From: Acidobacteriota bacterium
Lineage (GTDB): Bacteria > Acidobacteriota > UBA6911 > RPQK01 > JAJDTT01
DNA length: 47,313 nt
Assembly: GCA_028874215.1 (NCBI GenBank)
Contig: JAPPLF010000015.1
Location: 1-47,313 of the forward strand
Direction: 5' to 3'
The translations under genes and the position numbers were made by a program. Below the pieces are notes generated by a model that worked only from the letters and a program-made list of their open reading frames with translations, was not told the DNA's origin and did not search any database. This document shows, piece after piece, positions 34,334 to 40,761 of this stretch (positions are counted from its first letter, which is position 1; each line of letters starts with the position of its first letter).

Positions 34334-35503
34334 CTACATCTGGGACAATCTTCCCATCAAACTGAAAATGGGCATGTACATGGACAGCACCATGCCGCCG
34401 ACGACGATGCCCAGGACCAACATCATCATGGGTTCCAGCAGGGCCAGAAACCGGTTGATGCTGGTGTCCGCTTCCTCCTCGTAGTAGACCGCCAGCTTCA
34501 GGAGCATGTCGTCCAGTGTGCCCGTCAGCTCGCCGATCCGAATGATCTCCGACGCCATTTGGGGAAAGAGGCCGCTGTGCCGGAATGGTTCCGCCAGGGC
34601 GCTCCCCGACTCGACCTCACTCCGGAGCGCCAGCACCGTCTGCTGAAATCGCCCGTTTCCCAGAGCCCGGGCCGTCAGGTCCATGGCTTCCAGGATGGGG
34701 ACTCCGCTGGAGAGGAGCGTGGATAGGGTCCGTGCGAAATTGGCCGTCAGGAGTTGGGTGGTCACCGGACCCAACAGCGGCGCCGCCAGAATGATGCGAT
34801 CCATCCACATCCGCCCCTTGGCCGTCCGAAAGTAGAGTCCACCCGCTATGGCCCCCATCCCCGCCCCCAGGCTCAGGAGCAGTCCCCACCGGCTCAGGAA
34901 CCCGCTGGCTCCCATGACCATCCGCGTCGGCAAAGGGAGGGGGACGTCCAGGTTGGCGAAGAGGGACGCGAAAACCGGAATCACCCAGACCAGGATGACG
35001 CCCAGAACCAGGAACGAAGTCACGATGACGACCGCCGGATAGAGCGAGGCCGAGAGCACCGCCTTGCGCCACTGAAGCCGTTTTTCCAGGAAGAGGGTGA
35101 GGCGCTCGAACACGGTGTCCAGGAATCCCCCCGTTTCGCCCGCCCGGACCATGTTGACGAAAAGGGGATCGAAGACACGGGAATGGCGCTCCAGCGCCGC
35201 AGCAAGGGTGGAACCCGATTCCACGTCGTAACGGACCTGGCGCAGGGTGGAGCCCAGGGCGCGGTTCTCCTCCTGCTGGGCCAGATTCTGCAAGGCCGTC
35301 ACCAGCGAGACGCCCGCCCCCAGCATCACCGACAGTTGCCGCGTGAAAAGAGCCAACTGCCGGGTCGAGATCCTTCCGATTCGAGCCTGAGCAATGCGGC
35401 GGGGACGAAACTCCCGCCCGTCTGTAGTAGCCACTGATACTGGTAACGATTGCGGACCGGAAAACAACGAACAGGAGGGGTGGGAGGGGACTTCCCGGTC
35501 CAT
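34334..35503 (-). CDS. pilC: Type IV pilus inner-membrane platform protein, PilC/GspF family
   Basis: 389 residues in this frame. Two T2SF domains are clear: ISTRQLALFTRQLSVMLGAG, GETGGFLDTVFERLTLFLEK and the membrane helix VVIVTSFLVLGVILVWVIPV in the first; FARTLSTLLSSGVPILEAMD, GELTGTLDDMLLKLAVYYEE and a final helix in the second. The roughly 60-residue beta-rich cytoplasmic N-terminus found in most PilC proteins is missing. The first 40 residues instead read as non-conserved sequence that runs into the promoter region of the divergent ATPase operon, so the gene appears altered or truncated at its 5' end. Confidence 0.88.
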   Translation of the reverse strand: MDREVPSHPSCSLFSGPQSLPVSVATTDGREFRPRRIAQARIGRISTRQLALFTRQLSVMLGAGVSLVTALQNLAQQEENRALGSTLRQVRYDVESGSTLAAALERHSRVFDPLFVNMVRAGETGGFLDTVFERLTLFLEKRLQWRKAVLSASLYPAVVIVTSFLVLGVILVWVIPVFASLFANLDVPLPLPTRMVMGASGFLSRWGLLLSLGAGMGAIAGGLYFRTAKGRMWMDRIILAAPLLGPVTTQLLTANFARTLSTLLSSGVPILEAMDLTARALGNGRFQQTVLALRSEVESGSALAEPFRHSGLFPQMASEIIRIGELTGTLDDMLLKLAVYYEEEADTSINRFLALLEPMMMLVLGIVVGGMVLSMYMPIFSLMGRLSQM

Positions 35504-35509
35504 CTGACC

Positions 35510-35554
35510 TGTTGCAACAATATTGTTGACAACAAAACTGTTGATTGTTCTAAT
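35510..35554 (+). promoter_or_regulatory. Promoter with tandem palindromic operator for the two-ATPase operon
   Basis: TTGACA at 35526-35531 and TCTAAT at 35549-35554 are 17 bases apart, a strong sigma-70-type promoter. Over it lie five half-sites, alternating TGTTG and CAACA, at 35510, 35515, 35524, 35530 and 35539. They form two 14-bp units, CAACAATATTGTTG (perfect palindrome) and CAACAAAACTGTTG, spaced 15 bases start to start. The AT-richness contrasts with the surroundings. A bound repressor would cover the -35 and the spacer. Confidence 0.72.
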
Positions 35555-35579
35555 GGGTACACGAAATGAGGACTAAGGA

Positions 35580-36824
35580 ATGAGGTTGTCGACGGGCCGC
35601 TGGGTGAGCGGGGACGATTTCTTTGATCGCGAATCCGAGTTGCGGGTACTGAAAGCCCGAGTCCGCGACGGTAACCATGTGTTGCTGACGGGACAACGGC
35701 GCATGGGAAAGACCAGCATTGCCAGAGAACTGGGTCGGCGGCTCGAAGCCGAAGGGTGGATCTTCCTTTTCACCGATGTCGAGGGAGCAACCTGTCCGGA
35801 GGACGCGATCGCCGATATTGCACGGGCGGTGCATCCGGTTCGCGCAATTTCGTCACGTTTCGCCACGACGATGAAACGCTGGTTGACCGAGAGGCTGGAA
35901 GAGATCAGCGCCCTGGATTTTGGCCTAAAGATCCGTGCCGGACTGAACGTCGGAAGTTGGCGGCGCCATGGAGGAGAATTGCTTCAAGCATGCGCCTCCC
36001 ACGACAAGCCGGTGCTTCTTGTCATTGACGAACTGCCAATCTTTCTCAAACGCATGCTTCGGCATGAAGACGGGCCGCGACAGGTCGATGAGTTCCTCAG
36101 TTGGCTGCGCGCCGAGCTTCAAAGAGTCGAGGCCGGATCCCTGGTCGTCATCGTGTCCGGCAGTATCGGTCTCGGTCCACTCGTAACGAGGCTTGGTATC
36201 CCTGATCGCATCAACCATCTCGATCCCATTCGTCTAGGCCCGTGGGACCGTGAAACCAGTGCCGCATGTTTCCGGCGCCTTGCAGAAAGTTCTGGATTGC
36301 GATTCGACGAGGGTGTGCCAGGTGCCGTATACGAGGCGCTCGGCATCGGGATTCCCCACCACGTCCAGTCCTTCTTCGCGCGCCTCAGGGATTTCGCCAC
36401 AATCCGTGGACGGGAGTTTTTAACCGGAGAAGACGTCAGCGAGGTCTATCGCGCGGACCTTCTCGGCCCTTCGGGGCAGAACGACCTCGTGCACTACGAG
36501 ACACGCCTCAAGGACGGGCTGGACGACCCGAGCTACTCCATCGCCATGGAGATTCTCGCCGAGGCGTCGACGCAGCGGAGGTTTTCGCAAGCTGCGCGGA
36601 GACAACTCACGCACATTTATTCCGTGGTGGTCGCTGATGCACGGGGGCGTATTGCAGATGTGCTCGAAGTCTTGACGCACGACGGCTATCTCGAAACCGG
36701 CGAGGATGGTTTTCGCTTTCCGTCCCACTTGCTGAGGGACTGGTGGGCCGCTCGTTTCCGCGATCATCACTCTCCCCTCGCAAGCCGCCGGCGAAAAGAC
36801 AGATCATCGGGGGAAGCGCGGTGA
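35580..36824 (+). CDS. AAA/STAND-type ATPase with C-terminal winged-helix-like region
   Basis: 414 residues, not recognised as a named family. It resembles the archaeal-type ATPase_2 group: Walker A GQRRMGKTS at residues 38-46, Walker B LLVIDE at 146-151, a sensor-like VSGSIGL near 192, then a helical part and a winged-helix-like segment (RRFSQAARRQLTHIYSVVVA, ADVLEVLTHDGYLETGEDGF). No nuclease or membrane segment is visible. GAGG lies eight bases before the ATG. It overlaps the next gene by four bases, so the two ATPases are made together. It is encoded opposite to, and inside, the pilus gene set and is visibly less GC-rich. Confidence 0.8.
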   Translation: MRLSTGRWVSGDDFFDRESELRVLKARVRDGNHVLLTGQRRMGKTSIARELGRRLEAEGWIFLFTDVEGATCPEDAIADIARAVHPVRAISSRFATTMKRWLTERLEEISALDFGLKIRAGLNVGSWRRHGGELLQACASHDKPVLLVIDELPIFLKRMLRHEDGPRQVDEFLSWLRAELQRVEAGSLVVIVSGSIGLGPLVTRLGIPDRINHLDPIRLGPWDRETSAACFRRLAESSGLRFDEGVPGAVYEALGIGIPHHVQSFFARLRDFATIRGREFLTGEDVSEVYRADLLGPSGQNDLVHYETRLKDGLDDPSYSIAMEILAEASTQRRFSQAARRQLTHIYSVVVADARGRIADVLEVLTHDGYLETGEDGFRFPSHLLRDWWAARFRDHHSPLASRRRKDRSSGEAR

Positions 36825-39427
36825 ATACAACTGAACGGACGATCCGAAAATTCAATCCGGGGACGTTTCAATCCGACGAGGAGGTCATTGAGCAATTCGT
36901 CGTCCGTAACCGCGAACTCGGTACGGTGCTTGAGACCCTTCGCGGAAACATCGAGTCACCGTCGTGCCAACACGTGCTTGTCATTGCCCCGCGCGGCCGT
37001 GGAAAAACCATGCTTCTGGCTCGTACCGCCGCCGAGATTCGGACGAATGAAGCGCTTTCCAATCGGCTGTTTCCGGTTCGATTCATGGAAGAAAGCCAGG
37101 AGATCTTCGATATGACTGATTTCTGGCTGGAGACGCTGTTCCACTTGGCGAGGGAGGTCTCCCCGAGTCATTCCGAACTCGCGCGGCAACTGCGCCGAAC
37201 CCACGCGGTGCTGACCGGCCGCTGGCGTGAGGGGATGTTAAGGGAGTCTGCCCGGGCCGCGGTTCTGGAAGCGGCAGACCGGCTCGACCGGAAGCTCGTT
37301 CTCATGGTCGAGAACCTGCAGTCGCTGACTCAGGATGTGGACCGCGATTTTGGGTGGATGCTTCGAGAGGTTCTGCAGTCCGAGCCCCAAATCATGCTGT
37401 TGGGTTCCGCCACCAGTCGTTTTCGGGGTCTGGACGATGCAAGCCATCCATTCTTCGAGCTTTTCAGGATCGTTGGTCTCGAACCGCTGCAGACCGAGGA
37501 ATGCCGTCGCTTGTGGCAGCTCGTCAGCGGCGACACTGTGAGCGGCCGGGAGATCCGGCCACTTGAGATTCTGACCGGAGGTAGTCCCCGTCTGCTGGTG
37601 ATCGTAGCCGGATTCGGTCGACATCGCTCTCTCCGTCAGCTCATGGAAGAGCTGGTTACGCTGATCGACGACCATACCGAGTATTTCCGTGGCCACCTGA
37701 TCGCCTTGGCGAAAACCGAACGCCGCGTCTATCTGGCGGTGCTCGATCTCTGGAGACCGTCGAGCGCCAGCGAGATCGCAGCGAGGGCTCGAATGGACAT
37801 CCGTACCGTATCGGCCTTGCTCGGGCGATTGGTCAATCGGGGCGTAGTGACCCGGGAAGGCCGCGGCAGGAAGCTCCGGTACGCCGCGGCAGAGCGTCTC
37901 TACAGCATTTACTTCAAGTTGCGGCGCGAGCGCGGCGACATTGTCATCGTACGGGACCTGGTTCGTTTCATGGTGGCGTTCTACGGGACCGGCGAACTGT
38001 ACGAAATGTCCGATCGTCTCGTTTCGGAGGTGGCCGAGTCGGTAGTTTTTCGCAAAGGATTCGCGCGGGCGCTCTCGAACCGGCCTCCCAGTGAGGATGG
38101 TGCCTCCGGAATGAAATGGGATGCCATTCAAATGGTATCGGACCAAGCTAAAGAGCGTTATTGGAGCATGGCCGAATGGAATCTCGAGAAAGAGATCAAT
38201 ACGGCATTCACGGAGGAGTCATTCGAGAGGGTCGTCGAAATCGCCGACGAGTTTGCCGCCTCGCTGGAGACGGGTGCGGATCGTTCTCCGGAACAGATCA
38301 TCGATTACCTGTTGCATATGAAGGCCTACGCGCTTTACCACTTGGCGGATTATCGTGGCGTGATTGCCGTTTGCACGGAAATGGCCGACCGATTTGGCGG
38401 CAGCGGTAACGATACGCAATCGGCGCGACTCGCCGAAAGTTTGGTCCTCGGGGCAAGTGCACGCTTTGAAATCGGCGAATACCGGGCGGCAATCGCAACC
38501 TGTGATGATGTGATGCGGCGCTTTGGCAACATTGACCGGCCACCATTTCAAGAGGTCGTCGCTACGGCATTGATCGAGAAAGGATCCGCTCACGAAAAAC
38601 TCGGCGATTTCGAGGCGGCGGTCGCAGCCTACGATGAAGCAGTCGAACGACTCGGGGACCTTGGTGGTCATGAAGTTCGAGTACTGTTCGCTGGGGTATC
38701 GCTAAGAAAAGGAAATGCATTCGCGCGGTGCGGCAATCTTGCGGATTCGATTGCTGTGTATGACCAGGTCATCGAGCGTTTCGCCCACGGTGATGAGGCT
38801 GAACTACGGAGATCGGCGGCCGCTGCTTTGATCAGCAAAGGAGGCAGCCTGGGGAGACTGGGTGATCGTGGGGGAGAAATTGACGCGTACGGCGAGGTGC
38901 TCGACCGTTTCGATGACGGACCGCCGGGCATCCGGACCCACGTCGCCGTGGCGCTGAGTCGCAGGGCTATGCGTTTGGCCGAGGCCGGTCGTGCAGAAGA
39001 AGCTCTCCAGGATTGCGAAGAACTCGAACGGGAATTTGGTGCTTTGGACGGAGACGGCATAAGTTGGTTCAAGTTGCATGCAATGTGCGTACGTGCTGTG
39101 GCGGGATTCGTCCAGAAAAGGCGTCGATTTGCCATGGAGGCTTTCAACTCCGCATATGCAGCATTCACCCCACGCAACGAAGACGCAATGCAAGCAATGC
39201 TGCGCGTTGTGGCAACCTTGATCGCGACCGGCGCGCCGGTGCATGAGCTTGTCGAGATAATGACGGCCGACGAGGCGAAATCCGAGGCCTTGGCGCCTCT
39301 CGTCGTTGCTCTCCGTCAGCAGGCCGGGGAGGTAGTTCGCGCGCCGGTGGAAGTGCTTGAGGTTGCTGCGGACATCCGCGACCAATTTCGTAAGCGGATG
39401 GGAACGAGTGTTTCCAAACCTTGTTGA
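36821..39427 (+). CDS. ATPase with winged helix and TPR repeats
   Basis: 868 residues from the GTG at 36821 (GGGGGA upstream, GTGA overlap with the previous stop). Walker A is APRGRGKTM at 56-64. The Walker B position reads LVLMVENLQ, with Glu-Asn in place of the usual Asp-Glu, so hydrolysis may be altered. A sensor-like LLGSATS is near 194. A MarR-like winged helix is near 310-370 (ASEIAARARMDIRTVSALLG, RLVNRGVVTREGRGRKLRYA). From about 490 there are roughly six TPR units such as ALIEKGSAHEKLGDFEAAVA and SLRKGNAFARCGNLADSIAV. This sensor-switch architecture is typical of STAND NTPases in signalling or antiviral defence; no effector domain is seen. Confidence 0.82.
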   Translation: MNTTERTIRKFNPGTFQSDEEVIEQFVVRNRELGTVLETLRGNIESPSCQHVLVIAPRGRGKTMLLARTAAEIRTNEALSNRLFPVRFMEESQEIFDMTDFWLETLFHLAREVSPSHSELARQLRRTHAVLTGRWREGMLRESARAAVLEAADRLDRKLVLMVENLQSLTQDVDRDFGWMLREVLQSEPQIMLLGSATSRFRGLDDASHPFFELFRIVGLEPLQTEECRRLWQLVSGDTVSGREIRPLEILTGGSPRLLVIVAGFGRHRSLRQLMEELVTLIDDHTEYFRGHLIALAKTERRVYLAVLDLWRPSSASEIAARARMDIRTVSALLGRLVNRGVVTREGRGRKLRYAAAERLYSIYFKLRRERGDIVIVRDLVRFMVAFYGTGELYEMSDRLVSEVAESVVFRKGFARALSNRPPSEDGASGMKWDAIQMVSDQAKERYWSMAEWNLEKEINTAFTEESFERVVEIADEFAASLETGADRSPEQIIDYLLHMKAYALYHLADYRGVIAVCTEMADRFGGSGNDTQSARLAESLVLGASARFEIGEYRAAIATCDDVMRRFGNIDRPPFQEVVATALIEKGSAHEKLGDFEAAVAAYDEAVERLGDLGGHEVRVLFAGVSLRKGNAFARCGNLADSIAVYDQVIERFAHGDEAELRRSAAAALISKGGSLGRLGDRGGEIDAYGEVLDRFDDGPPGIRTHVAVALSRRAMRLAEAGRAEEALQDCEELEREFGALDGDGISWFKLHAMCVRAVAGFVQKRRRFAMEAFNSAYAAFTPRNEDAMQAMLRVVATLIATGAPVHELVEIMTADEAKSEALAPLVVALRQQAGEVVRAPVEVLEVAADIRDQFRKRMGTSVSKPC

Positions 39428-39573
39428 CCACTGCCGTCGAATCGCACCGTCGGAGGTTTGGGCTGTTCCCGCAATGGACAACCGGCGGACTCTGCGTGCC
39501 GTTATGCAGTACGCGCGGTGAACCACGCCCGTTGATCCATGCTCATCAAGGAGGCCTGCGTTTACTCGGGAAT

Positions 39574-39593
39574 CGGCGGTTGGGAAACCGCCG
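39574..39593 (-). repeat. REP-like hairpin, CGGCGGTT type
   Basis: Arms CGGCGGTT/AACCGCCG around GGGA, in the 221-base gap between the ATPase operon and pilT. Confidence 0.87.
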
Positions 39594-39608
39594 CCCCGGC
39601 GCGAGGTG

Positions 39609-39628
39609 GGGCGATTTCCCAATCGCCC
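39609..39628 (+). repeat. REP-like hairpin, GGGCGATT type
   Basis: Arms GGGCGATT/AATCGCCC around TCCC. Together with 39574 it repeats the two-type pairing seen at 311-475. Confidence 0.87.
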
Positions 39629-39648
39629 GTTCCTGCGTCGCCGCATTG

Positions 39649-40761
39649 CTACCCGGGAGTCCGGCGGTTGGGAAACCGCCGCCCCAGGCACCGCGTTAGA
39701 TCGGCGGTGTCGGGGGAGACTTCCAGGCAGGCCTCGTAGGAGATCCGGCCCGCCCGGGCCAGCTCGGCCAGACTCTGATTCAGGGTGCGCATCCCGCTTC
39801 CGGACTGTCCCGTCTGCATGGCCGAGCGGATCTGGTGGAGCTTGTGCTCGCGGATCAGGTTCCGGATGGCCGGGTTGGGAATCAGGACCTCCGCGGCAGC
39901 GACTCGCCCTTGCCCGTCGCGGGACCGGATCAAGGTCTGGCAGACGATTCCCTCCAGGACCGAGGAGAGGAGGGACTGGATCCGGCCCTGCTGATCGGCC
40001 GGAAACATGTCCAGGATTCTCCCGATGGTGTCGGGCGCCGTTCGGGTGTGAAGGGTCGAGAGGGTCAGGTGCCCCGTTTCGGCCAGCCGGAGGGTGGTCT
40101 CGATGGTCTCGGTGTCCCTCATCTCCCCCACCAGGACCACGTCGGGGTCCTGCCGCAGGGCCATGCGGAGCGCGGACGCGAAGGAGGGGGAGTCCCCCGG
40201 AACCTCCCTCTGGCTGACGACGCTCATCTGGTTGTGGTGCACGAATTCAATGGGATCTTCGATGGTGATGATGTGTTTGGCCCGGGTTCGATTGATCCGG
40301 TCGATGAGGGCCGCCAGCGTGGTCGACTTGCCGCTGCCGGAGGAGCCGGCCACCAGAATCAGGCCGTGGGGCCGGCCGGCCAGACGCTCCACCACGGCGG
40401 GCAGGCCCAGTTCCTCCAGTGGTATGACCTGAAGCGGGATGAGCCGCACGACTGCCGCCGTCTTGCCCCGGCGGGTGAAGACGTTGGCGCGGAATCGGGA
40501 CAGCCCTTCCACCTCGAAGCTGAAGTCGATCTCCCGGAGACGTTCGAACCGGGACTTTTGCCGGTCCGACATGATGCCGTAGGCCAGATTCCGTGTCTCT
40601 TCCAGGTTCGGTTGGAGGTGGTTCGCGGCCACCAGCCGGCCATGGACGCGCAGGCAGGGTACGGAATCGGGAATGAGATGCAGGTCGCTGGCGCCGGAGT
40701 CGTGGGCCAATCGCAAGAGGTTCAGGATCTGTCCTGTGGGACGCGTCCGGTCAATCCGCAT
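39649..40761 (-). CDS. pilT: Twitching-motility ATPase PilT
   Basis: 370 residues, the pilus retraction ATPase. DSGASDLHL and VPCLRVHGRL open the N-terminal domain. Walker A is AGSSGSGKSTTLAALIDRIN; the Asp box is ITIEDPIEFVH; Walker B is PDVVLVGEMRDTET; the His box is TGHLTLSTLHT; the AIRNLIREHKLHQI region (AIRNLIR signature) is present. The last 11 residues or so ([11 protein letters not shown]) are encoded by a hairpin element at 39662-39681, so the native C-terminus has been replaced or extended. It follows pilB closely (10 bases between the stop of pilB and this start). Confidence 0.95.
   Translation of the reverse strand: MRIDRTRPTGQILNLLRLAHDSGASDLHLIPDSVPCLRVHGRLVAANHLQPNLEETRNLAYGIMSDRQKSRFERLREIDFSFEVEGLSRFRANVFTRRGKTAAVVRLIPLQVIPLEELGLPAVVERLAGRPHGLILVAGSSGSGKSTTLAALIDRINRTRAKHIITIEDPIEFVHHNQMSVVSQREVPGDSPSFASALRMALRQDPDVVLVGEMRDTETIETTLRLAETGHLTLSTLHTRTAPDTIGRILDMFPADQQGRIQSLLSSVLEGIVCQTLIRSRDGQGRVAAAEVLIPNPAIRNLIREHKLHQIRSAMQTGQSGSGMRTLNQSLAELARAGRISYEACLEVSPDTADLTRCLGRRFPNRRTPG
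39662..39681 (-). repeat. REP-like hairpin inside the pilT 3' end
   Basis: Arms CGGCGGTT/AACCGCCG around GGGA. It is translated as part of the PilT tail, the clearest case of an element within a coding frame. Confidence 0.87.

Follow-up and report, generated by a model that had tools for sequence, protein, structure and literature searches.

STAND ATPases with a TPR sensor, such as PH0952 (6MFV) and members of the MalT clade, are composed of a nucleotide-binding core with a winged helix, a helical arm and the TPR sensor. In one such protein, in its resting form, the winged-helix domain has its third helix docked on the arm (PMC6468293). Autorepressors of the MarR, TrmB and ArsR type, by comparison, are small stand-alone dimers in which helix 3 and a basic wing act on palindromes over their own promoter. 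A two-gene arrangement with inverted repeats over the promoter and autoregulation by a module protein is found in the AbiE toxin-antitoxin system (PMC7319586). Here we consider a tandem palindromic element at positions 35510-35554 of a 47,313-nt stretch of DNA from an Acidobacteriota bacterium (the whole stretch is called the window below), which precedes two ATPase genes, A and B. We consider it probable, judging from sequence comparisons, that the dyads of this element serve as operator for a two-gene module, self-contained and spread horizontally, and are read by protein B, which would repress its own operon.

Protein B shares the layout of the TPR-sensor STAND ATPases, but the winged helix of its core seems to serve as a DNA reader. 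With the MarR/TrmB/ArsR-type autorepressors it shares helix 3, the basic wing and the palindromes over its own promoter, whereas its winged helix-turn-helix (wHTH) lies within an 868-aa ATPase. The likeness to AbiE lies in the operon layout and in the autoregulation proposed here; no sequence relation was found between the two systems, and neither A nor B is a known toxin or antitoxin. A and the core of B also have the fold of the archaeal Walker-type ATPases 2QEN/2FNA and of Orc1/Cdc6, but this is a likeness of fold only, with origin function not indicated here, and B has in addition a long TPR sensor.

Results

Five alternating half-sites, TGTTG at 35510-35514, CAACA at 35515-35519, TGTTG at 35524-35528, CAACA at 35530-35534 and TGTTG at 35539-35543, make up the proposed operator (35510-35543, with no strand assigned), which can be described as two CAACA-N4-TGTTG dyads, CAACA-ATAT-TGTTG (35515-35528) and CAACA-AAAC-TGTTG (35530-35543), plus an upstream half-site. 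The start-to-start step of the dyads is 15 bp, and TRF also calls an array of period 15. The -35 hexamer TTGACA (35526-35531, plus strand) is formed where the two dyads meet, and a -10-like hexamer, TCTAAT (35549-35554, plus strand), with five of six matches to the consensus, lies 17 bp past it; it was not reported by a strict promoter scan because it has no A at -10 position 2. The half-sites, the 15-base step and the placement of the dyads over TTGACA and the 17-base spacer had all been described in the original prediction, and the coordinates proved correct to the base. From the end of the last dyad to the ATG of gene A there are 36 bp, and the palindromes overlap the core promoter of the A-B operon, as those of an autoregulatory operator do.

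In the window alone, two CAACA-N4-TGTTG matches at no more than one mismatch, both of them exact, against 0.57 expected, are modest evidence; the genome-wide count is decisive. The motif scan that the original prediction had suggested found only three exact sites in the 5.7-Mb genome, all belonging to A-B operons: two are those described above and the third lies just upstream of the only full A-B paralogue in the genome, whose A is 42% identical. When the strict tandem pattern was searched in 396 genomes of the phylum, it occurred at five places, three of which are A-B operons (two in the same genome and one in a sister).

For the homologous operons, a profile of A was scanned against ~85,000 species genomes and the best 80 of 208 matching loci were kept, which together with five loci from the same genome and its relatives gave 85 loci (one relative, C74/L068, entered twice, being present in two collections), from records labelled with about twelve phyla. 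A dyad was called when at least 8 of 10 letters matched within 250 bp upstream of A. By this measure at least one dyad is present in 82 of the 85 loci and at least two in 81, so that the absence of dyads upstream of homologous operons, which would have spoken against the original prediction, was not what we found. Base shuffles gave 7.9 sites and coding sequence of equal length 7, against the 222 found upstream of A, and dyads are essentially absent from the rest of the loci (~11 kb per locus). Conservation of the CAAC and GTTG letters is 93-100%; the inner letters are variable, with a purine/pyrimidine preference. Exactly 15 bp separate neighbouring dyads in 105 pairs. As to the three loci without a called dyad, L117 is cut off at a contig edge, and L119 and L124 bear CTAC-N6-GTAG or a close variant. 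A distant A-B pair of ~28% identity (G372; L202, 2509-2545) has ATAC-N6-GTAT-type tandem dyads 16 bp apart, and G084 has CAAC dyads with longer arms stepping 16 bp. These cases indicate that the operator geometry outlives its letters.

The overlap with the promoter is likewise general. In the 76 loci having a 15-bp pair the dyad junction reads TTG-N-CA, the junction forming the -35 hexamer in the window, and when all offsets were scanned in these loci, the hexamer 17 bp downstream gave the best mean match to TATAAT, with the logo TAnnnT; four or more TATAAT matches occur at this offset in 25 loci, the most of any offset. With the -35 at the dyad junction and the -10 peak 17 bp on, we regard the -35 hexamer as part of the operator. 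Many loci have an extra single dyad 25-29 bp further, over the -10/start region. A step of 15 bp, or ~1.4 turns, turns adjacent dyads towards roughly opposite sides of the double helix, and thus cooperativity, if any, need not involve side-by-side contact.

This placement bears on the sign of the regulation. The dyads might instead be an activator site or an assembly platform on which an ATP-bound B oligomer stimulates transcription, as MalT-type STAND regulators do; the layout of B (NBD, HD, WHD, arm, TPR sensor) is that of STAND transcription factors (PMC6468293), and three or four dyads stand in tandem at some loci. Since the dyads lie over the -35 hexamer and the spacer, and often also over the region of the start site, positions at which a bound protein normally blocks polymerase, we think stimulation improbable and repression the better reading.

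The operator belongs to a compact genetic unit. Gene A (35580-36824, plus strand) encodes a 414-aa AAA/STAND-type ATPase (AAA_16/ATPase_2) with the fold of 2QEN/2FNA, and gene B (36821-39427, plus strand), read from the GTG at 36821, encodes the 868-aa proposed autorepressor with its NTPase core, winged helix, arm and TPR sensor. The start of B overlaps the stop of A by four bases (GTGA), and in many homologous loci B starts at or beside the stop of A, an arrangement that suggests translational coupling. Clustering of the neighbouring open reading frames across loci found A and B to be the only common genes, the next clusters reaching at most five loci; the flanks differ everywhere, and A is linked to B in every operator-bearing locus whose contig extends far enough. 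A same-genus genome (G002) without A-B has the flanking genes ~69 bp apart, and in the window this gap, between 35480 and 39650, is replaced by the inserted module of operator, A and B (35481-39649, plus strand). The empty site shows that operator and genes arrived together. Since the loci have no genes in common but A and B, the simplest reading is that the module itself encodes the regulator. In a sister species (G003; L048, G003:C350) the operon is broken, with A internally deleted and two TGA codons in B, and the operator is intact. The tree of A departs from the phylum labels, with 25 changes against a minimum of 11, which is compatible with transfer, although bins can be impure.

The genomic context also speaks to a different role for the tandem dyads, namely as iterons or an origin for an Orc1/Cdc6-like AAA+ initiator protein. 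A and B do match the archaeal Orc1/Cdc6 fold, and Orc1/Cdc6 bind origin DNA through a winged helix; the module, on the other hand, is chromosomal, its contexts vary and share no replication gene, its best plasmid matches, three in number, are only 22-26% identical, and the sites are fixed in register with the -35/-10 promoter. We would be very surprised if an origin, rather than an operator, were the right description.

Between the two module proteins, B is the best candidate for the reader. Its closest structural match by Foldseek is 6MFV (rank 1), and VIA-align relates residues 9-433 to CED-4 and NRC4 (Z 18-20), with 2QEN at Z 22.6; the protein has the P-loop NBD, HD, WHD, arm and repeat (TPR) sensor of a STAND NTPase, with no extra domain ahead of the core in sequence or model. 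The winged helix (37712-37888, plus strand; residues 298-356 in the numbering of the 868-aa protein) is predicted by AlphaFold as a proper wHTH, with helices at 298-310, 316-323 and 327-340 and a wing at 343-356. The third of these is the predicted recognition helix, containing Arg328, Ser331 and Arg336, and a basic wing follows at ~347-352. This domain passes the Pfam cut-off for TrmB (27.5 vs 25.6 bits) and has weak matches to MarR (below cut-off), ArsR, CopY, SdpR and Penicillinase_R. Every aligned homologue that covers these positions has Ser331 and Arg336, and the B-like proteins of G029, G030 and G037, which have neither A nor the operator, are without Ser331, Arg336 and the basic wing.

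Residue 328, the second residue of the predicted recognition helix, co-varies with the operator. In a scan of 1,188 columns in A and B, Arg328 of B alone perfectly tracked two separate operator changes: R occupies this position in 70/70 loci of the standard operator class and in none of the eight whose half-sites are CCAAC or CTAC. The same rule holds for two operons not included in the alignment (C151 with N, G222 with S). Arg328 had been noticed by eye in the winged helix before the blind scan, which is therefore a ranking and not an independent discovery. The GTTGA/GTTGG flank was also tried by itself as a pointer to the reader residue, and fails since the GTTGG class is one clade.

The same scan bears on the possibility that the operator is read by A, or by A and B in complex, and not by B alone. 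A too has a winged helix at its end, always adjoins the operator and is always B-linked where contigs reach far enough. Its wing is acidic and variable, however, the exposed positions of its recognition helix are variable, it matched no DNA-binding-type family in a comparison with the HTH families, and no column of A perfectly follows both operator changes; reading by A is, to us, unlikely, though less so than activation. The original prediction suggested that the second ATPase, through its winged helix, could be the autoregulator, and this is accordingly upheld as the best candidate, on the wHTH match, the conservation and the co-variation at residue 328.

Discussion

We infer DNA binding by B, the repressing sign and the signal-driven release, and propose the following scenario. 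The winged helix in the nucleotide-binding core of B would read each CAAC-N6-GTTG dyad, probably as a pair of protomers, and two or more occupied dyads would cover the -35 hexamer and the spacer and block RNA polymerase, keeping the operon low. Engagement of the TPR sensor, or a change of nucleotide state, would make the core rearrange and leave the DNA, and the pair would then be made in quantity. Because helix 3 of the winged-helix domain docks on the arm in the known TPR-STAND protein, DNA binding and arm contact would compete, and this competition perhaps provides the route by which sensing or the nucleotide state controls repression. The more specific proposition, that the STAND-core winged helix is itself the sequence-specific reader, making B a sensor, ATPase and autorepressor in one chain, a single allosteric device within a widespread mobile module, is one to which we give about even chances.

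Several observations weigh against autorepression by B. STAND proteins of known structure use the winged-helix domain as a structural part, with its third helix on the arm, and DNA reading by it would be unusual (PMC6468293). The operator changes tracked by residue 328 trace back to two or three events on the tree, so that clade effects are possible, and when the GTTGG class is taken by itself, nine other columns do as well as 328, six of them in A. Finally, the remaining two of the five strict-tandem places in the phylum are orphans without adjoining A-B (L147 1501-1529 and L219 1501-1529, in genomes G096 and G189), both with G as the junction base; they are possibly relics or chance occurrences. 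These orphans could also be taken to mean that the dyads belong to a host-wide regulator with the operon as one of many targets. Such a regulator seems to us as hard to credit as an origin, for exact sites in the genome under study are found at A-B operons only, and the operator travels with the module over about a dozen phyla whose hosts differ.

Autoregulation by promoter-overlapping dyads is in itself ordinary. Here a widespread, uncharacterised ATPase pair is tied to a precise cis element that is kept with the genes across those phyla. In the open-access papers searched we found no description of the A-B pair or its operator, nor of a phylum-crossing module that brings its operator along and has a STAND-core winged helix as the reader. 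Should B prove to be the reader, the winged-helix domain of STAND proteins, which is known to serve as a structural hinge in resting and active NLR-like proteins, would be able to act as a repressor head as well. The promoter would then offer a reporter handle, whatever relieves it being the signal sensed by the pair, and the rule linking residue 328 to the operator makes specificity directly testable.

Other descriptions of the element and of the module were also considered. For the operator site, the single-strand fold is weak (z -1.4), and a hairpin was rejected; no terminator-like site was found there, no RNA family in Rfam matches it, and mobile-element end repeats were discarded since the 3' side of the module has no matching dyads. 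Assignment of the module to a known defence family was not adopted, PADLOC giving weak matches only (mad8, 26.7 bits). A search for viral relatives of protein A found none. Strict tandem matches in viral contigs mostly resemble repetitive coding DNA, one lying between tRNA-like genes, and proteins A and B have no match in the contigs that contain them.

A few further features of the locus may be recorded. The TPR part of B varies widely in length among homologues (L053-L132), with open frames from ~550 to more than 1,200 aa, as if the number of repeats changes quickly. The module sits between two minus-strand genes, one pilC-like (T2SSF, 34334-35503) and one pilT-like (39649-40761), the latter label resting on position only. 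Its 3' edge adjoins a copy of an ~85-bp dispersed repeat (GGCGGTTGGGAAACCGCCGCCCC with GGCGATTTCCCAATCGCC), which has dozens of copies in the genome, some of them in tandem, and occurs in the window at 39564-39690 and 311-476.
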